Shown here: one piece after another, positions 10,311 through 38,170 of the stretch
How positions within the stretch are numbered: position 1 is the stretch's first letter
Layout: each line of letters begins with the position of its first letter
Virus record (IMG/VR): IMGVR_UViG_3300048837_001683
Span: 1 to 40,903 of that record
Reading direction: 5' to 3' (one strand)
Length of the DNA stretch: 40,903 nucleotides
From: a virus
Notes under the pieces: generated by a model
Told to the model about the DNA's origin: nothing
Database searches by the model: none
Seen by the model: the letters and a program-made list of their open reading frames with translations, nothing else
Position numbers and translations under genes: made by a program

Positions 10311-10984
10311 AGCGCCCTCGGCTCCCCGCGACCTCGAGGCCGTGGCCGGTGGTAATCCTTGCGATCGACCCGGGCGCGACCTCGGGCTGGTGCGTGCTGG
10401 TGCCGGAGGCGCAGCACCGCGCGCTCCGCGTCGAAGCTGGCGTCGCGAAGACCACGCCGCAACGCGAGGCGTGCGTGCAGCTTGCGGTGACGACCGCGGC
10501 CGAGCGTGAGCGCGTCCTCGTCGTCGTTGCGGAGACCTGGCGTGTGCCCGCGCCCAAGCCGGGCGAGGCGCGGCCGGGGGAGAAGCGTCGCCCCTTCGGT
10601 GCGCAGACCGCGGCGGGGCTCGGTGCGAACTGGGGGCGCTGGCTCGCGGAGCTCGAGCGCGCAGCCATCCGCGCGAGCTCGGTCATTCGAGTCGACACCG
10701 GCACGTGGCGCGCGCGGGTCCTCGGCTACCCGAAGCGACGCCCCACGGAGGCGTGGAAGCGGGCTGCGCTGGCGCGCGCGGCGACCGTGACGAGCGCCGA
10801 GCTCGCGCACGATGCGGCCGAGGCCGTGTGCATCGCGCTCTGGGCACAGATCGCAGGCGAGGTCGGCCTCGCGCTGCCGGCGGCGACCCTCCGCGCGGCG
10901 CTCGCGCGCCCCGAGGACGCGGACCTCCTCGCCGAGCTCGAGCGCCGTCGAGGCCTCGCACCCACGACCACGCGGCCGCGCTGA
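10307..10984 (+). CDS. RuvC-like Holliday-junction resolvase (225 aa)
   Basis: The RNase H-fold motifs are in order: AIDPGATSGWCV (Asp21), VVVAETWRV (Glu76) and HDAAEAVCIALWA (Asp169, Glu172), matching the acidic active site of RuvC. Phage enzymes of this type resolve branched DNA in replication, recombination or before packaging. The protein is longer than RuvC (about 170 residues), with an extra basic segment after Glu76 (KPGEARPGEKRRP). The ATG at 10307 overlaps the previous stop (ATGA); in-frame GTG 10295 is less likely. Confidence 0.7.
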   Translation: MKRPRLPATSRPWPVVILAIDPGATSGWCVLVPEAQHRALRVEAGVAKTTPQREACVQLAVTTAAERERVLVVVAETWRVPAPKPGEARPGEKRRPFGAQTAAGLGANWGRWLAELERAAIRASSVIRVDTGTWRARVLGYPKRRPTEAWKRAALARAATVTSAELAHDAAEAVCIALWAQIAGEVGLALPAATLRAALARPEDADLLAELERRRGLAPTTTRPR

Positions 10985-11012
10985 GGACGCACGGCCGCAG
11001 GAGGAGCCACCG

Positions 11013-12893
11013 ATGGAGACCACGACCGAACCCAAGAAGCCGAAGAAGCCACGCAAGAGCGCGGCCGAGGTAGCCGCCGAAACGGGGACCCTGAGACCCG
11101 ACCTCCCCGCGAAGGGCGCCCCGAAAGCGGCGAACGGCTTCAAGGCGAAGCCGAAGACCGAGACGCTCGAGGACGAGCTCGCCGACATGGCCCGCGAGCT
11201 CGGCAACCCACCGCCTCGGCCGAAGGGGCGGTCCGAGGTCATCCGGCTCGACGCACTCGACGTCTACCCGCGCAACCCTCGCGGACCGATCCGCGAAGAG
11301 GACGTGGTCGAGCTCATGAGCGACATCGGGACGCACGGGCAGCTCCACGAGCTCACCGTGCGGCCCAAGCGGGGCGAGCGAGGTGAGGAGCGCTGGGAGG
11401 TGCTCGCCGGAGCCCGCCGGCGCCTCGCGATGATCTTGGGCGGGCACACCACGGCGCGCTGCTGGGTGCTCGACGGCTGCGACGACGACACGGCCCGCGA
11501 GATCGTGCTCACCGAGAACGCGCAGCGCGAAGACATCCACCCGCTCGACGAGGCGGACTCGATCCGCGAGCTCATGGAGCTGAAGGGGAGCGCGGAGGCC
11601 GTCGCAGCCCGGCTCGGCAAGACGGTCGCCCACGTCCACGGGCGGCTGCGGCTGGCGGGCCTCGGAGCCGAGGGCCGCGAGGCCTTCCGCGCGGGCGAGC
11701 TCACCTTCGGTGTCGCGGCCGCGCTCGCGCGCTTCGACGAGCCCACGCAAGCGAGGGCGCTCCGGGAAGGGCGCGCGGCGTGGCCTCCGAGGCCTCCTGG
11801 AGAGCCGATCCCGTCGGCGAGCATCACGAGCGCGCTCGTGCGCGCCGCGCTGCTGCTGAGCGGCGCGAAGTTCCCGCTCGACGTCGTGCCGGACGCGAAG
11901 GGGACGCGCGGAGCCTGCACGACGTGCATGCACCGGACGGGCGCTCAAACCGAGCTCTTCGCCGACGCCCTCGCCGCCACCAAAGACGACCGATGCGTCG
12001 ACCACGCGTGCTGGGACGCGAAGAACGCGTGGTGGTTCGCGGAGCTCGCGGCGAAGGCGAAGGAGCAGGGCGCCACGGTCAAGAAGAAGCTCGACGCGAA
12101 GGCCTACGCGGGCACGCCGCTCTGGAACGGCTCCGACCTCCGCACCGCGGACTACGTCCCCGCCGACGCGCCCGCGAACCACGGGCACACCTGGGATCGC
12201 ATCAAGAGCGGCAACCGCGAGCTGACGTGGTCGCAGGCGCACAAGAAGGCGTTCGGCGAGCCGATCCCGGCGACCGAGATCACGGTGACGCTGGACGGCA
12301 CGGGCGCGCCTCGTGAAGTCATCAAGGAGAGCCTCGCGAAGCGCATCCGATCCGCGTTCAAGAAGGGGGAGACCGGCGGCGACACGCAGCCCGACTCGTA
12401 CGCTCAGCAGGAGAAGAAGCGTCGCGAGAAGGAGAAGATCCAGCGCGCGGTGCTTCGGGCTGTACAGGATGCGGCGATCCAGAAGGCGCGCAGCGTCGAT
12501 CTGACCGAGGCGGAGGTGTTCGGCCCCGGCGGACTGCTGCGACCGCTCGCGCTGCTCGCCCTCGACCGCTTGGACAGCCCGACACTCGTGGACCTCGGGA
12601 TCCGCGAGTGCCAGAGCTACCTGGAGAGGCACAAGGCGCTCGTCGAGCACGTCGCATCCGTGAAGAGCGACGAAGAGCTCGTGCGACTGCTGCTCGTCGG
12701 GCTTCTCGTCCGAACGTTCAGCCGCGACCGCACCGAGGAGGGCGAATCGGCGCGTGCGGCCGCGCTCGAGCTGCTTGGGGTTGACGCTGACGCGATCAAG
12801 CGCGACGTCGAGGCCGCGGCGAAGAAGCCGAAGAAGGCCTCGTCGAAGACCATCGCAGCGACCACCGCGAAGCGAGGCAAGCGCAAGGCATGA
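11013..12893 (+). CDS. ParB/Spo0J-like nuclease-domain protein (626 aa)
   Basis: After a basic disordered N-terminus (KKPKKPRK), residues from about 75 form a ParB N-terminal domain: SEVIRLDALDVYPRNPRG, ELMSDIGTHGQLHELTV, then GARRRLAMIL and the diagnostic TENAQREDIHPLDEA. A helix-turn-helix region (AVAARLGKTVAHVHGRL) follows. A Cys-rich segment (ACTTCMHRTG ... DRCVDHACW) is likely to bind zinc. The end is Lys/Ala-rich. No ParA partner is present, so plasmid-style partition is unlikely; CTP-dependent DNA clamping, replication control or transcription regulation are options. The ATG at 11013 has a strong GCAGGAGGAGCC ribosome site. Confidence 0.75.
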   Translation: METTTEPKKPKKPRKSAAEVAAETGTLRPDLPAKGAPKAANGFKAKPKTETLEDELADMARELGNPPPRPKGRSEVIRLDALDVYPRNPRGPIREEDVVELMSDIGTHGQLHELTVRPKRGERGEERWEVLAGARRRLAMILGGHTTARCWVLDGCDDDTAREIVLTENAQREDIHPLDEADSIRELMELKGSAEAVAARLGKTVAHVHGRLRLAGLGAEGREAFRAGELTFGVAAALARFDEPTQARALREGRAAWPPRPPGEPIPSASITSALVRAALLLSGAKFPLDVVPDAKGTRGACTTCMHRTGAQTELFADALAATKDDRCVDHACWDAKNAWWFAELAAKAKEQGATVKKKLDAKAYAGTPLWNGSDLRTADYVPADAPANHGHTWDRIKSGNRELTWSQAHKKAFGEPIPATEITVTLDGTGAPREVIKESLAKRIRSAFKKGETGGDTQPDSYAQQEKKRREKEKIQRAVLRAVQDAAIQKARSVDLTEAEVFGPGGLLRPLALLALDRLDSPTLVDLGIRECQSYLERHKALVEHVASVKSDEELVRLLLVGLLVRTFSRDRTEEGESARAAALELLGVDADAIKRDVEAAAKKPKKASSKTIAATTAKRGKRKA

Positions 12894-13687
12894 CGCGGCG
12901 CTTGCGAGTGGAGCGCGGCGTAGGCTGGGAGCTCCGGTGCGGCGACTGGCGCGACGTCCTCGACGACGTCGCGCTCGTCGACGTGCTCCTCGGCGACCCG
13001 CCGTTCTCGCGACGCACGCACCAAGGACAGCGCACGGGCGGCAAGGATCCGCGCTACTCGAAGGACCGAGGCGCGGCCGCGCTCGCGTCCGCTGGTCTCG
13101 AGTACTGCGCGTGGAGCGACGACGACGTGCGCGAATACGTCGCCTCGTGGAGCCCTCGGGTGTCCGGGTGGCTCGCGGCGCTCACGTCACACGACCTCGT
13201 GCCGGCGTGGGAGCGCGCGACCCTCGACGGCGATCGCTACCCCTTCGCCCCCATCGCCTGCACGCAGCACGCGCGCAACGTCCGCCTCACCGGCGACGGG
13301 CCGAGCTCGTGGAGTGACTACCTCGTGCCGGCGCGGCCGCGCTCGGTCGAGTGGCTCCGCGAGCGGCGCCGGCGACGTCGACTCGCGGGCCTCCCATGTG
13401 CGCTGCCGGGCGCCTACTACGGGCCGAGCTTCGACACCGGTGAGAACGCGCTCGACCGAAGCGCTCGAGCGGTGCGAGGAGCGAAGCCGCTGTGGCTCAT
13501 GCGCGCGCTCGTCGTGGACTACAGCGAGCCCGGCGACCTGCTCGTCGACCCCACCGCCGGCGGTGGAACGACGCTCGTTGCTGCGGTGCTCGAGGGGCGC
13601 CGGGCCATCGGCGCCGAGCGTGACGAGTCGACGTGGACGAAGGCGGTCGCGCGGCTGCGCGCCGTGGACGAACGGAGGGCTGCTTGA
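12890..13687 (+). CDS. DNA methyltransferase, N4-cytosine/N6-adenine class (265 aa)
   Basis: The catalytic motif DPPF (residues 36-39) comes first and the SAM-binding motif DPTAGGGTT (from 220) last, the order of beta-type amino-methyltransferases. The final segment AVLEGRRAIGAERDE matches the motif II region. Between them lies an Arg-rich target-recognition area. No restriction enzyme gene is adjacent, so it is an orphan methylase, probably protecting phage DNA from host restriction or marking sites for regulation. The specificity cannot be read from sequence. ATGA overlap with the ParB-like gene. Confidence 0.75.
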   Translation: MTRRLRVERGVGWELRCGDWRDVLDDVALVDVLLGDPPFSRRTHQGQRTGGKDPRYSKDRGAAALASAGLEYCAWSDDDVREYVASWSPRVSGWLAALTSHDLVPAWERATLDGDRYPFAPIACTQHARNVRLTGDGPSSWSDYLVPARPRSVEWLRERRRRRRLAGLPCALPGAYYGPSFDTGENALDRSARAVRGAKPLWLMRALVVDYSEPGDLLVDPTAGGGTTLVAAVLEGRRAIGAERDESTWTKAVARLRAVDERRAA

Positions 13688-16470: not shown

Positions 16471-16473
16471 TTT

Positions 16474-16494
16474 GGGCGCAGCGGCGCTGCGCCC
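16474..16494 (+). promoter_or_regulatory. Late-unit inverted repeat, family 1 (copy a), before the portal gene
   Basis: GGGCGCAGC-GGC-GCTGCGCCC is a perfect 9-bp dyad (10 bp with the flanking T/A), starting three bases after the terminase stop and ending 22 bases before the GTG at 16517. GATAGT at 16505-16510 sits at -10 distance if transcription starts at the GTG. It may be an activator site at about -43 to -23, or a terminator/processing hairpin. No T tract follows. Confidence 0.5.
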
Positions 16495-16516
16495 ACACGC
16501 ACGGGATAGTCGGTCC

Positions 16517-17851
16517 GTGGCGGTGACGATCTACGACGCGCAAGGTCGTCCGATCGACTTGCGCGCGCTCCGCCGCGTCCACGTCGACGAGGACAAGCAG
16601 GTCGCTCACGGGCGACCAGCCGGATGGAGCGCATCCACGGAAAGCGTGAGCTCGGTGCTCACGCCCGAGCGTCTCGCGCGACTGTTGAAGAACGCGGACG
16701 GCGGCCACCTGCGCGACTACCTCACGCTCGCAGAGGAGATCGAGGAGCGCGACCTGCACTACCGCAGCGTGCTCGGCACGCGGCGTATGCGGATGACGGG
16801 GATCGTGCCCGCCGTGGAGCCCGCAGACGACTCCTCGAAGGAAGAGGGGATCGCCCAAGAGGTGCGGGATCTCGTATGGAGCCCGCGCTTCGCGCGCCTT
16901 GTGCACGGCATGATGGATGCGGTCTCGAAGGGGCTCTCGTTCGTCGAGATTCTCTGGGACGTGAGCGAAGGGCAGGCCATCCCCGTCGACTTCGTGTGGC
17001 GCGACCCGCGTTGGTATCGCGTCGACCCGCAACGCCTGCGGACTCTCCTCTTCGATGACGGTACGCCCGAAGGGCAGCCGCTCCCGGCCGGCAAGTACAT
17101 CATCCACGATCCGCAGCTGAAGTGCGGTCTTCCGATTCGTGCAGGCCTCGCGCGCCCGGTCTCGATCGCCTACGTGTTCAAGAGCTTCGACCTGCGTGGG
17201 CTCGCGCGGTTCCTGGAGGTCTACGGCATCCCCGCGAGGATCGGGCGATACCCGGTCGGGGCCTCCGACGACGACCAACGCCGGCTGCTGCGCGCGGTGA
17301 AGATCATGGGCAGCGATGCCGCGTGCATCGTCCCCGAAGACATGAACGTCGAGCTCGTGCAGCTGACGGGGCGCGTCGGCAGCGAGACGTTCCTCAGCGT
17401 CGCGACGTACTGGGATCGTCAGATCTCGAAGGCCGTTCTCGGGCAGACGTCGAGCTCCGAAGGGAGCGCGGGCGACTACAAGGCCAGCGCTGAGCACTCC
17501 GGCGTGCGCCTCGACATCGCGCAGCACGACGCACAGACGCTTCAGGCGACGATCATCGAGCAGTTGATCAAGCTCTACGTCGACGTGAACCACGGCGTTC
17601 GCAAGCGATACACCTCCGTCACGCTGAACGTGCCGAAGTCCGAAGATCTCTCGCGCTTCGCATCCGCGATTGTGCAACTCGTCGACCGCGGCCTCGAGGT
17701 CGATCAAGAGCAGGTGCGCGAGCGCATCGGCCTCGCTGCGCCCGAAGACGGCAAGGCTCTCCTGCGCCCCGCTGCGCAGCGCAAGAGCGACGACTCTGAT
17801 CGAGGGTCCGAGTCGCCGCCGCCGAGCGATTCGGGCGACGACGCGCGCTGA
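16517..17851 (+). CDS. Portal protein, Mu gp29 / DUF935 family (444 aa)
   Basis: The central part matches the Mu gp29 type: YLTLAEEIEERDLHYRSVLGTRR, DAVSKGLSFVEILWDV, WRDPRWYRVDP, GLARPVSIAYVFKSFDLRGLARFLEVYG, and SVATYWDRQISKAVLGQT. The portal forms the dodecameric ring at one capsid vertex through which DNA is packaged and released. The C-terminus is Ser/Asp-rich. The GTG at 16517 has no Shine-Dalgarno sequence and follows the inverted repeat at 16474. In Mu the next gene is the minor head protein F (gp30), but here none follows; the next gene is the protease. Confidence 0.9.
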   Translation: MAVTIYDAQGRPIDLRALRRVHVDEDKQVAHGRPAGWSASTESVSSVLTPERLARLLKNADGGHLRDYLTLAEEIEERDLHYRSVLGTRRMRMTGIVPAVEPADDSSKEEGIAQEVRDLVWSPRFARLVHGMMDAVSKGLSFVEILWDVSEGQAIPVDFVWRDPRWYRVDPQRLRTLLFDDGTPEGQPLPAGKYIIHDPQLKCGLPIRAGLARPVSIAYVFKSFDLRGLARFLEVYGIPARIGRYPVGASDDDQRRLLRAVKIMGSDAACIVPEDMNVELVQLTGRVGSETFLSVATYWDRQISKAVLGQTSSSEGSAGDYKASAEHSGVRLDIAQHDAQTLQATIIEQLIKLYVDVNHGVRKRYTSVTLNVPKSEDLSRFASAIVQLVDRGLEVDQEQVRERIGLAAPEDGKALLRPAAQRKSDDSDRGSESPPPSDSGDDAR

Positions 17852-35339: not shown

Positions 35340-35554
35340 CGCCCGCCGAGCGTGCCTCCGAGCTCCGTGAGACCGCGCGGTTGCTCGAGCAGTCCGCAGA
35401 GCTCGCCGGCACGCTCGACGAGCTTCGGCTGCGCCTCACCGAGGCGCTCGAGCACGGCGACGTCGACGCGCTGCGGCGACTGCTCGCCGGGCCGCTCCTC
35501 GTCGCCGCGCGCGGCACGCTCGACCGGCTCGCGTCGCCGACGGAGGGCACGTGA
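35336..35554 (+). CDS. Small helical hypothetical protein of the lysis region (72 aa)
   Basis: GTG at 35336 in a GTGA overlap, stop overlapping the endolysin start. Leu/Arg/Glu-rich helices (ASELRETARLLEQSAELAG) suggest a coiled coil. It could be a regulator or chaperone of the endolysin; no family. Confidence 0.45.
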   Translation: MTPAERASELRETARLLEQSAELAGTLDELRLRLTEALEHGDVDALRRLLAGPLLVAARGTLDRLASPTEGT

Positions 35555-36156
35555 CCGCGCTCCACGACGGCGTGCGCGTCGAAGAGGACCTCGCCGAGGG
35601 CGTGGTGCTCTGGGACGTGTCCGGGCTCCTGCCGCACGCGCACCGCCGCGCGACGAAGCGCCCGCGGGGCGTGCAGATCCTCCGGCTCTACCTCCACAAC
35701 AGCGGCGCGCTCGGGCTCCCCGGCGTCGCCGGCGCCGTCGCGAGCGCGCGCTTCGTGATGCGCGAGCGCGACTTCCCGTGGTGGCCCTACCACTTCTGGC
35801 TGACGCGCGATCCGCTCCGAGACGCCGACGGCCGACTCGTCGTGCTGCGTCTCGCCCCCGACTCCGAGCGCACGTGGTCGCAGGGCGCGCGCGCGAACGA
35901 CCACGGCGTGTCTGCGGTGCTGCAGGGCAACACGTCGAGGCTCCCCGTCTCGCCGGCGCAGGTCGAGGCGCTCGAAGCGTGGGTGCCGTGGGCGGAGGAG
36001 CGCTACGGCTTCTCTCGTCCGTCGATCGCCGACTGGCTTGCGACGCACTCGCGCGCGGGCCGCTTCGGCGGTCGCTCGAAGAGCACGTGCCCGGGCACGA
36101 ACGCGGAGCTCTGGCGTGACCGCTACGTCGCGCGCGCCACGGCGGCCGCGGCCTGA
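35551..36156 (+). CDS. Endolysin, N-acetylmuramoyl-L-alanine amidase type (201 aa)
   Basis: The ordered motifs LRLYLHNSG (His49), WPYHFWL (Tyr80, His81), THSRAGRFGGRSKSTCPG (His166, Lys177, Cys180) correspond to the zinc ligands and catalytic residues of amidase_2/PGRP enzymes. It would cut the bond between muramic acid and the peptide stem. No signal peptide, so release needs a holin. GTG at 35551 in a GTGA overlap. The 3' end overlaps the convergent gene 36123-36587 by 34 bases. Confidence 0.7.
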   Translation: MTALHDGVRVEEDLAEGVVLWDVSGLLPHAHRRATKRPRGVQILRLYLHNSGALGLPGVAGAVASARFVMRERDFPWWPYHFWLTRDPLRDADGRLVVLRLAPDSERTWSQGARANDHGVSAVLQGNTSRLPVSPAQVEALEAWVPWAEERYGFSRPSIADWLATHSRAGRFGGRSKSTCPGTNAELWRDRYVARATAAAA

Positions 36157-36587
36157 GCGGGGCGCAGCGCCGCGAGGGCGCGTTCGCACTCGATGAGGTG
36201 ACCCACCGCGTCATCAACGGCGTCCTCCGCCGCGAGCATCCGCTCAGCGGCGGCTTTCCACCCACCTACCGCTACCCACTCCTCGGATGCGGCGTGCTGT
36301 GCTCTTGCGGCGGCGATAACAGCCTCTTTCGCCTCTGCGACCCGAGCTTCGGCGTCTCGGATCTGCGTGCAGGGCGTGACGACCTCGACCGCGAACACGT
36401 ACACGAGCCCTCCGCCTGGTGCGCCCGGCTCCAGCGCCACTCGGTGCGGTCGCGGCACACCGGGTCGGTCGTCGTAGCGTTCGTACTCGCCGCAGCGCCC
36501 CGAGAGGTCGCGAAACGGTTCCTCGGGCTTCTCGGGATCGTCGTCGTGAACGATCCGAACCCAGTCGCCCCAACCAGGGTTGCTCAC
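36123..36587 (-). CDS. Hypothetical protein downstream of integrase (154 aa)
   Basis: GTG at 36587 overlaps the integrase stop (GTGA); ATG at 36596 with GGAGGGAGG before it is an alternative. The first half has charged and aromatic residues (SNPGWGDWVRIVHDDD) and a two-Cys pattern; the second half is a long helical segment (ARVAEAKEAVIAAARAQ, MLAAEDAVDDAVGHL). It lies between attP and the lysis genes, so in a lysogen it would be at the opposite prophage end from int. No family. Confidence 0.55.
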   Translation of the reverse strand: MSNPGWGDWVRIVHDDDPEKPEEPFRDLSGRCGEYERYDDRPGVPRPHRVALEPGAPGGGLVYVFAVEVVTPCTQIRDAEARVAEAKEAVIAAARAQHAASEEWVAVGGWKAAAERMLAAEDAVDDAVGHLIECERALAALRPAQAAAAVARAT

Positions 36588-38170
36588 TTGGCCCATCCTC
36601 CCTCCAGCTTCCTCGCCAGCTCCTCGCTGCTGATCCCGAGCCTCCGGGCGACGCCACGGAGCACACGTAGAGCCACCACCTCGTCACCTCCGCCGGCGAG
36701 CTCACGGGCGAGCGCCACGAGGGGCGAACGGTCAACATCCGCACTACGTCCGCGAATCGGTCGTGAATCGCGGGAGTCACCCGTGGGGGGGCGTGGGCCC
36801 GTAAGTGCCCGGGACGGCTCGGAAGTGCCGACGACCGTAAGGGTTCGAGTCCCGTCCGCTCCGCCGAAACCCCCGTCACCGACGGGGGTTTTTGCGTTGG
36901 GCCCTTCCAGGTCAACGATCGGGTCAAGATCCGACGGACCTGCGACGACGGCGGCACGAGGCAGCGCGACGACCTTCGCGTGCCGCTCAAGGCGCACGTC
37001 GAGGCGCAGGACCGCCTCGCACTGAGCGAGCCAGCGGCTCCCGCGGTAGGTGTTGAACGCGCCGGCGACGGGCTTCACCGAGTGCGTGATCGTCGCGACG
37101 ATCTGCTCGAGCTCGGGGGCGTCCGTGCTCGCGAGCGTCGCGAACGTGTTGCGGAGCTCGTGGGTCATCCGAGCCGGGATGCGGAGCTCGCGGCAGTCGC
37201 GCTCGAGCTGCTTCAGCGTCGAGCGCACCGGCCGGAACCGGCGGACGTCGAGCGTGGACGGCACGACGTAGTCGTCCGGGCGCGGGTGCCTTCCGTGCAG
37301 CGCGGCGAAGCCGCCCGTGCGCCACGCCTCGAGGATGGTCGCGAGGGTGCGGTGGACCGGGATCTCGCGCCGCTTGCCGTGGCCGCGTCGGTCTTCCTTC
37401 AGCGGGCGCCCGCCGGCCTGCTCGACGAGGGTGATGCGCGCGAGGGGCTCCGCGCGGAAGTCGATGTCACGCCACCGAAGGCCCGCCGCCTCGTCGTGGC
37501 GCATGCCGGTGAGGCCGAGCAGCGCCCAGAAGGTTCGGTGGTCGACCTGCAGGCGAGGGTCCGAGATCAGCAGCTCGAGCTCGGCGCGTTGGAACGAACC
37601 GCGCGGCCGCGAGACGCGCTCAGGCGCCTCGCCGTCGTCGAGGAGGTCGACGGGCGGCACCCACGCAACCCCCCGACGTCCGATCTCCTTCGCTGCGTCC
37701 CGGAGGCACTTCGCGAACGTCCCCCACACGTTGTGGATCGTGTTCGGCGAGAGCGGCTTCCCCGTCGTCGAGGAGCTCTTCGACCGGAGCTTCGAGAGCA
37801 GCTCGCGCACGTGGTCGACCGAGATCTCGACGAGCGGGAGACGACCGAGCAACGGGCGCACGTGCTCACGCAGGCGCGCCTCGTCGTCGTCGATAGTGCG
37901 CGGTGGGTTCGGCCGGTCGCGCCGCTTCTGGATCCACGTGTCGGCCCACGCGTCGAACCGAAGCCGATCGGTGCGGCGGTGGACGGTCGGCGTCCACGTC
38001 CCGGCCTTCACCGCGGCGATGCGCCCCTCGCGGTAGCGAACGGCCGCCCGCAGGTCGTCGCCGGCGATCTCCTGCACGCGCGTCCCGAGCGGGCCGACGT
38101 AGTGGATCTCGTACTGTCGGCCCGCGCGTCGGCGGATGCCGGGCGGCAGCTTCGCGGGTCTACGCGGCAT
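36584..38170 (-). CDS. int: Tyrosine recombinase integrase containing attP in its coding sequence (528 aa)
   Basis: The catalytic residues are in order: TGMRHDEAAGLRW (Arg224), KRREIPVHR (Lys267 region), MTHELRNTF (His337, Arg340), ITHSV (His363) and FNTY (Tyr375). Residues 70-170 form the core-binding SAM-like domain. The sequence continues 150 residues past the nucleophile, and residues 436-444 (GGADGTRTL) are the antisense translation of a tRNA 3' end. Integration at that site would exchange the last 84 codons. Phage Mx8 of Myxococcus has the same layout. ATG at 38170 lies inside the end of the excisionase-like gene. Confidence 0.9.
   Translation of the reverse strand: MPRRPAKLPPGIRRRAGRQYEIHYVGPLGTRVQEIAGDDLRAAVRYREGRIAAVKAGTWTPTVHRRTDRLRFDAWADTWIQKRRDRPNPPRTIDDDEARLREHVRPLLGRLPLVEISVDHVRELLSKLRSKSSSTTGKPLSPNTIHNVWGTFAKCLRDAAKEIGRRGVAWVPPVDLLDDGEAPERVSRPRGSFQRAELELLISDPRLQVDHRTFWALLGLTGMRHDEAAGLRWRDIDFRAEPLARITLVEQAGGRPLKEDRRGHGKRREIPVHRTLATILEAWRTGGFAALHGRHPRPDDYVVPSTLDVRRFRPVRSTLKQLERDCRELRIPARMTHELRNTFATLASTDAPELEQIVATITHSVKPVAGAFNTYRGSRWLAQCEAVLRLDVRLERHAKVVALPRAAVVAGPSDLDPIVDLEGPNAKTPVGDGGFGGADGTRTLTVVGTSEPSRALTGPRPPTGDSRDSRPIRGRSADVDRSPLVALARELAGGGDEVVALRVLRGVARRLGISSEELARKLEGGWAK
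36841..36865 (+). other. attP: attP core: 3' end of a tRNA-Asp gene
   Basis: The 25 bases start GGGTTCGAGTCCCGTCC and correspond to tRNA positions 51-75, with the T loop TTCGAGT, acceptor strand and discriminator G. They differ from the E. coli tRNA-Asp 3' end at one position as I recall it. The 5' half of a tRNA is absent. Integration would rebuild the host tRNA-Asp. The exact core limits and the host site cannot be seen here. Confidence 0.7.
36867..36893 (+). terminator. Rho-independent terminator behind the tRNA fragment
   Basis: ACCCCCGTC (36869-36877), loop ACC and GACGGGGGT (36881-36889) form a 9-bp stem, continued by TTTTT to 36893. It is directly downstream of the tRNA fragment in the same direction, so it would terminate the rebuilt tRNA in a lysogen. 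On the opposite strand it is read through as part of the integrase gene. Confidence 0.8.

Follow-up and report, generated by a model that had tools for sequence, protein, structure and literature searches.

A probable Mx8-type integration module, with a putative attP core inside the integrase gene, in a contractile-tailed phage

In Myxococcus phage Mx8, attP lies inside the integrase gene, and int acquires a new 3′ end on integration (PMC6070905). The exchange replaces 112 residues with 13 and leaves the lysogen with a less active enzyme (PMC4701971), and a switch of the integrase between integration and maintenance is established for this phage (PMC4701971, PMC6070905). According to a review, the integrase of Myxococcus phage Mx9 follows a similar integration principle (PMC6070905), a likeness that we take from the review's description. 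In the Islander work, the Mx8 and SSV integrases are both described as extending across attP (PMC4383910), and archaeal SSV-type integrases carry att inside the integrase gene (PMC8371274). Streptococcal ICEs in rumA also have att within the integrase gene, the C-terminus of which changes on integration (PMC4701971). Unlike the phage described here, however, these elements use a serine integrase and target a protein gene.

We analysed a stretch of 40,903 nt, positions 1 to 40,903 of IMG/VR virus record IMGVR_UViG_3300048837_001683, to which we refer as the window. Facts on Mx8 were drawn from GenBank D86464 and open reviews. The Mx8-type arrangement is already known, and the phage studied here adds a distant relative of it, set among genes that otherwise differ from those of Mx8: probably it uses an integration module of Mx8 type, with attP in int and the tail of the enzyme trimmed in the lysogen. 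The features of the locus are collected in Table 1.

Table 1. Features of the integration region in the window, with strand and the basis or relation of each.
Feature	Positions	Strand	Basis or relation
int, tyrosine integrase, 528 aa in the free phage	36584..38170	-	PF00589, Phage_int_M, phrog_1, Mx8 Int homology
Putative attP core, 3′ end of tRNA-Asp(GTC), T-stem to CC	36841..36865	+	Antisense to int codons 436-444
Terminator-like hairpin directly 3′ of the tRNA end	36866..36893	+	Antisense to int codons 426-435; inverted repeat I3
int codons 389-480, predicted disordered linker containing attP	36731..37006	-	pLDDT 20-28, no secondary structure; GC3
int codons 481-528, predicted small three-helix C-terminal domain	36587..36730	-	pLDDT about 61-76; codon periodicity
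int codons 444-528, part expected to separate on integration	36584..36841	-	Core position and predicted junction
Excisionase-like HTH_17 gene, Uoi-like, 92 aa	38160..38438	-	phrog_66, phrog_1840, HTH_17 E 2e-14
157-aa ORF overlapping the int stop	36123..36596	-	ORF list, GC by codon position

A tRNA-Asp end inside the integrase gene

The original prediction placed attP inside int, at the 3′ end of a tRNA-Asp that would serve as the target, and both the place and the target are supported. The core, GGGTTCGAGTCCCGTCCGCTCCGCC, is a 25-mer identical to tRNA-Asp positions 52–76 (0 mismatches) within an ORF of 528 codons. When the window was compared with 91 distinct tRNAs by BLAST, this was the sole match longer than 16 nt (E 2e-9), the next-best being 16 and 15 nt long; the window holds no complete tRNA and no terminal repeat. 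Among 65 viral contigs, all complete tRNAs holding the 24-mer were tRNA-Asp(GTC). The core had also been said to encode residues 436–444; it spans codons 436–443 entirely and reaches codon 444 by its first base alone. It starts 61 codons past Tyr375 and has 84–85 residues behind it.

The product of int matches PF00589 over residues 207–345 (E 1.7e-7) and phrog_1 (E 6e-32), as well as the Phage_int_M domain; a comparison by sequence with solved structures gave no match. The catalytic residues R224, H337, R340, H363 and Y375 are common to Mx8 Int, and all of them lie N-terminal of the attP core, before codon 436. This order bears on the possibility that int is a suicidal integrase of the SSV type, an enzyme wholly broken by integration. 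The position of att within int would agree with such a reading, as in the archaeal SSV-type integrases (PMC8371274), but in those enzymes the catalytic domain and the N-terminal part end up on different sides of the split (PMC8371274), whereas the catalytic domain of the present enzyme would stay whole and the separation that characterizes the SSV type is not found in int. The phage also retains an excisionase-like gene. We therefore regard an SSV-type integrase as highly improbable.

An open frame across attP is in itself unremarkable at 71% GC (we estimate about 0.2 for 84 codons). What makes an attP inside int credible is the core match, together with a homologue in Mx8 that has its annotated attP at the same place. 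As the role of the core here rests on sequence, the 25-mer could be a relic or a chance match, with the true attP elsewhere. Against this, the match is strong and the only one of its kind in the window, it adjoins int and xis, and it agrees with the core annotated in Mx8 both in tRNA segment and in position, all of which makes a relic or chance match very doubtful. We infer that the core is a working attP and that tRNA-Asp is the target used in the real host.

Two viral contigs that hold the 24-mer together with an integrase gene were considered as further cases of the same arrangement and rejected: in one (L054) int ends before the core and in the other (L065) it starts after the core. Repeats in the region are no denser than in the rest of the window, so we claim no arm-type sites. 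At 36865–36869 the base after the tRNA end is G (GCCG); Mx8 and other core-bearing contigs have GCCA here. A tRNA rebuilt by the phage would consequently be without an encoded final A and would need CCA addition.

Correspondence with Mx8

Int and Mx8 Int are homologous tyrosine integrases, with 27.75% identity over 400 aa (E 2e-27). The Mx8 recombination core is annotated at 2387–2415, corresponding to intP codons 412–421 (GenBank D86464), which places it 58 codons past Tyr354 with 112 residues behind. In both phages, then, the core lies in int about 60 codons past the catalytic tyrosine and consists of the same tRNA-Asp 3′ segment, although it is read in a different frame (ARSTGLEP in Mx8, GGADGTRT here). 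A Uoi-like gene overlaps the start of int in each, by 11 nt in the window and by 8 nt in Mx8, and the two proteins are 45% identical over 49 aa. Because the integrases are homologous, the geometry matches and the excisionase gene matches as well, the parallel with Mx8 drawn in the original prediction is stronger than first claimed.

The two phages also share a terminator-like hairpin that adjoins the core on the strand opposite int. In the window its arms are AAACCCCCGTC-ACC-GACGGGGGTTT, followed by TT, and it folds at −25.3 kcal/mol (z −5.4); the Mx8 counterpart, likewise directly 3′ of the tRNA end, has a z of −5.0. The Mx8 hairpin was listed by a terminator scan. That of the window was missed by a simple terminator scan, as part of its T run is base-paired. 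We read it, from its sequence and position, as a putative terminator for the rebuilt tRNA.

Outside this module the virion genes of the two phages are unlike. Terminase, a phrog_113 portal, tail sheath and baseplate indicate a contractile-tailed (sheathed-tail) phage, and besides int the sole window ORF to match Mx8 at E 1e-3 does so weakly, in the Mox methylase region. Since the virion genes are not Mx8-like, either the integration module or the virion genes seem to have moved between phages. A myxobacterial host is plausible, on the basis of the Mx8 homology only. Integrase-based scans of viral contigs returned only Mx8 itself; one of these scans started from an alignment with a family consensus, and our argument is independent of it. 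A tblastn search of plasmids and phages found distant integrases only. Exact-pattern scans of genome contigs, with the core and its adjoining bases or with an integrase motif, gave no match, a result that does not speak for the absence of such prophages.

Several neighbouring genes can be described further. The portal gene (16472–17851), in contrast to the Mx8-like integration module, is up to 45% identical to its counterparts in Ochrobactrum phage POA1180 and in relatives of that phage, which infect several hosts. The methylase-like ORF at 12791–13687 (N6_N4_Mtase), which shares 38% identity with the Mox region of Mx8 along 61 aa (E 1.5e-5), adjoins a ParB-like ORF at 10812–12893. An Amidase_2 endolysin gene (35551–36156) adjoins the attP end of the genome. 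The 157-aa ORF has no family match; its start lies within the int stop region and is preceded by a purine-rich stretch. Integration would detach it from int and set it beside host DNA.

The predicted linker and the C-terminal tail

Both integrases are predicted to have a disordered linker followed by a helical tail that integration would cut off. AlphaFold predicts tail helices at residues 483–492, 497–511 and 515–523 of Int and, in Mx8 Int, no structure over 368–463 and then helices, in models built on two sequences with a poor catalytic domain (mean pLDDT 44 and 41.5).

Codon usage was compared along both genes. In int, GC3 is 0.92 over codons 1–408, 0.64 over 409–500 and 0.82 beyond (0.64 vs 0.92, p 6e-11), dropping to about 0.6 across codons 433–480. 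In Mx8 int it is 0.85, then 0.63 over codons 381–480 and 0.85 beyond (0.63 vs 0.85, p 3e-6). Two other long ORFs in the window have GC3 troughs near 0.6, as low as that of int, so that such a trough is no proof when taken by itself. In int, codons 409–480 lack codon periodicity, which is back over 481–528 (p 0.005); in Mx8 int it is absent over codons 381–421 and present behind (p 0.001).

The tail had been proposed to contain a possible DNA-binding helix pair. Judged by the AlphaFold helices and the return of codon periodicity, the tail has the look of a genuine small helical domain, but no HTH family matched it above the cut-off, which leaves the helices without the DNA-binding assignment. 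An ANTAR-like identity was rejected as too weak, neither the Pfam match (E 0.09) nor the structure match (Rv1626, Z 4.9) being significant.

Could the anatomy be right and the tail nevertheless dispensable, its frame open by chance in GC-rich DNA and the short enzyme equally good? DNA of 71% GC contains few stops, codons 409–480 lack periodicity, the tail sequence is not common to Mx8, and the Mx8 core is in another frame. Yet periodicity returns where the helices are predicted, Mx8 likewise regains both periodicity and helices, and the short form of the Mx8 enzyme is reported to be less active (PMC4701971). We consider a dispensable tail somewhat unlikely. The last codons of int overlap the start of the next ORF and its likely ribosome-binding site, which may add a constraint of its own.

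Alternatively, the helical tail could be a separate small gene 3′ of attP that is in frame with int by chance. A trough of about 90 codons interrupts the coding signal, and in-frame GTG codons occur at 485, 498, 499 and 503. There is, however, no ATG, none of these GTG codons is preceded by an evident ribosome-binding site, and no stop lies between the tail and int, so that translation of Int would in any case include the tail. Mx8 Int, moreover, has the same build of linker plus helices. A separate gene thus appears improbable, and we treat the tail as the predicted C-terminal domain of Int.

The tails themselves are unrelated (112 residues in Mx8, 85 here), and their sequences gave no alignment (p 0.68). 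It follows that the tail may act differently in each phage, or may be of no importance. Given that the tails cannot be aligned and the core frames differ, what the two integrases have in common is geometry and not peptide.

Predicted outcome of integration and its meaning

When int was joined in silico to antisense tRNA-Asp, each of 10 distinct genes used as attB (10/10) gave GGADGTRT, 10 further residues and a stop, the 10 residues being mostly RDxxRDRxxF. The exact new residues are a prediction that depends on the tRNA-Asp of the host. The lysogen Int would have 453 aa instead of 528, keeping residues 1–443 and losing 444–528. The expected replacement of the codons behind the core by antisense tRNA is therefore reproduced in the predicted junction, with 85 residues lost where 84 had been given.

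A mechanism consistent with these features can be proposed. Int would recombine the core and the 3′ end of the host tRNA-Asp gene, the two being identical, whereby the phage would rebuild the tRNA 3′ end and supply the terminator-like hairpin behind it, both on the strand opposite int. The same event would cut int after codon 443, leaving all catalytic residues in place and residues 444–528, including the small helical domain, at the other prophage end. The gene would then read about 10 codons of antisense tRNA-Asp and stop. If the analogy with Mx8 holds, the enzyme of the lysogen should have lower activity. It is a fair inference from the same analogy that the integrase switches between integration and maintenance: in the free phage, full-length Int would promote integration, and in the lysogen, shortened Int would promote stability, while the Uoi-like protein may steer the direction of recombination.

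Tentatively, one may imagine a class wider than Mx8, in which the attP DNA doubles as the code for a disordered linker, an exchangeable helical domain behind it serves for integration only, and the product of recombination edits the enzyme. If this is true, the unrelated tails would be different accessory domains attached to the same linker–attP design. The comparison separates features that are kept (the place of attP, the tRNA end with its hairpin, and the linker followed by helices) from those that are not (the frame of the core and the sequence of the tail), and thereby makes the role of the tail testable. As the same geometry recurs at less than 30% identity in a phage whose virion is different, the integrase gene with a lysogeny switch built into it, as in Mx8, would not be confined to one phage.
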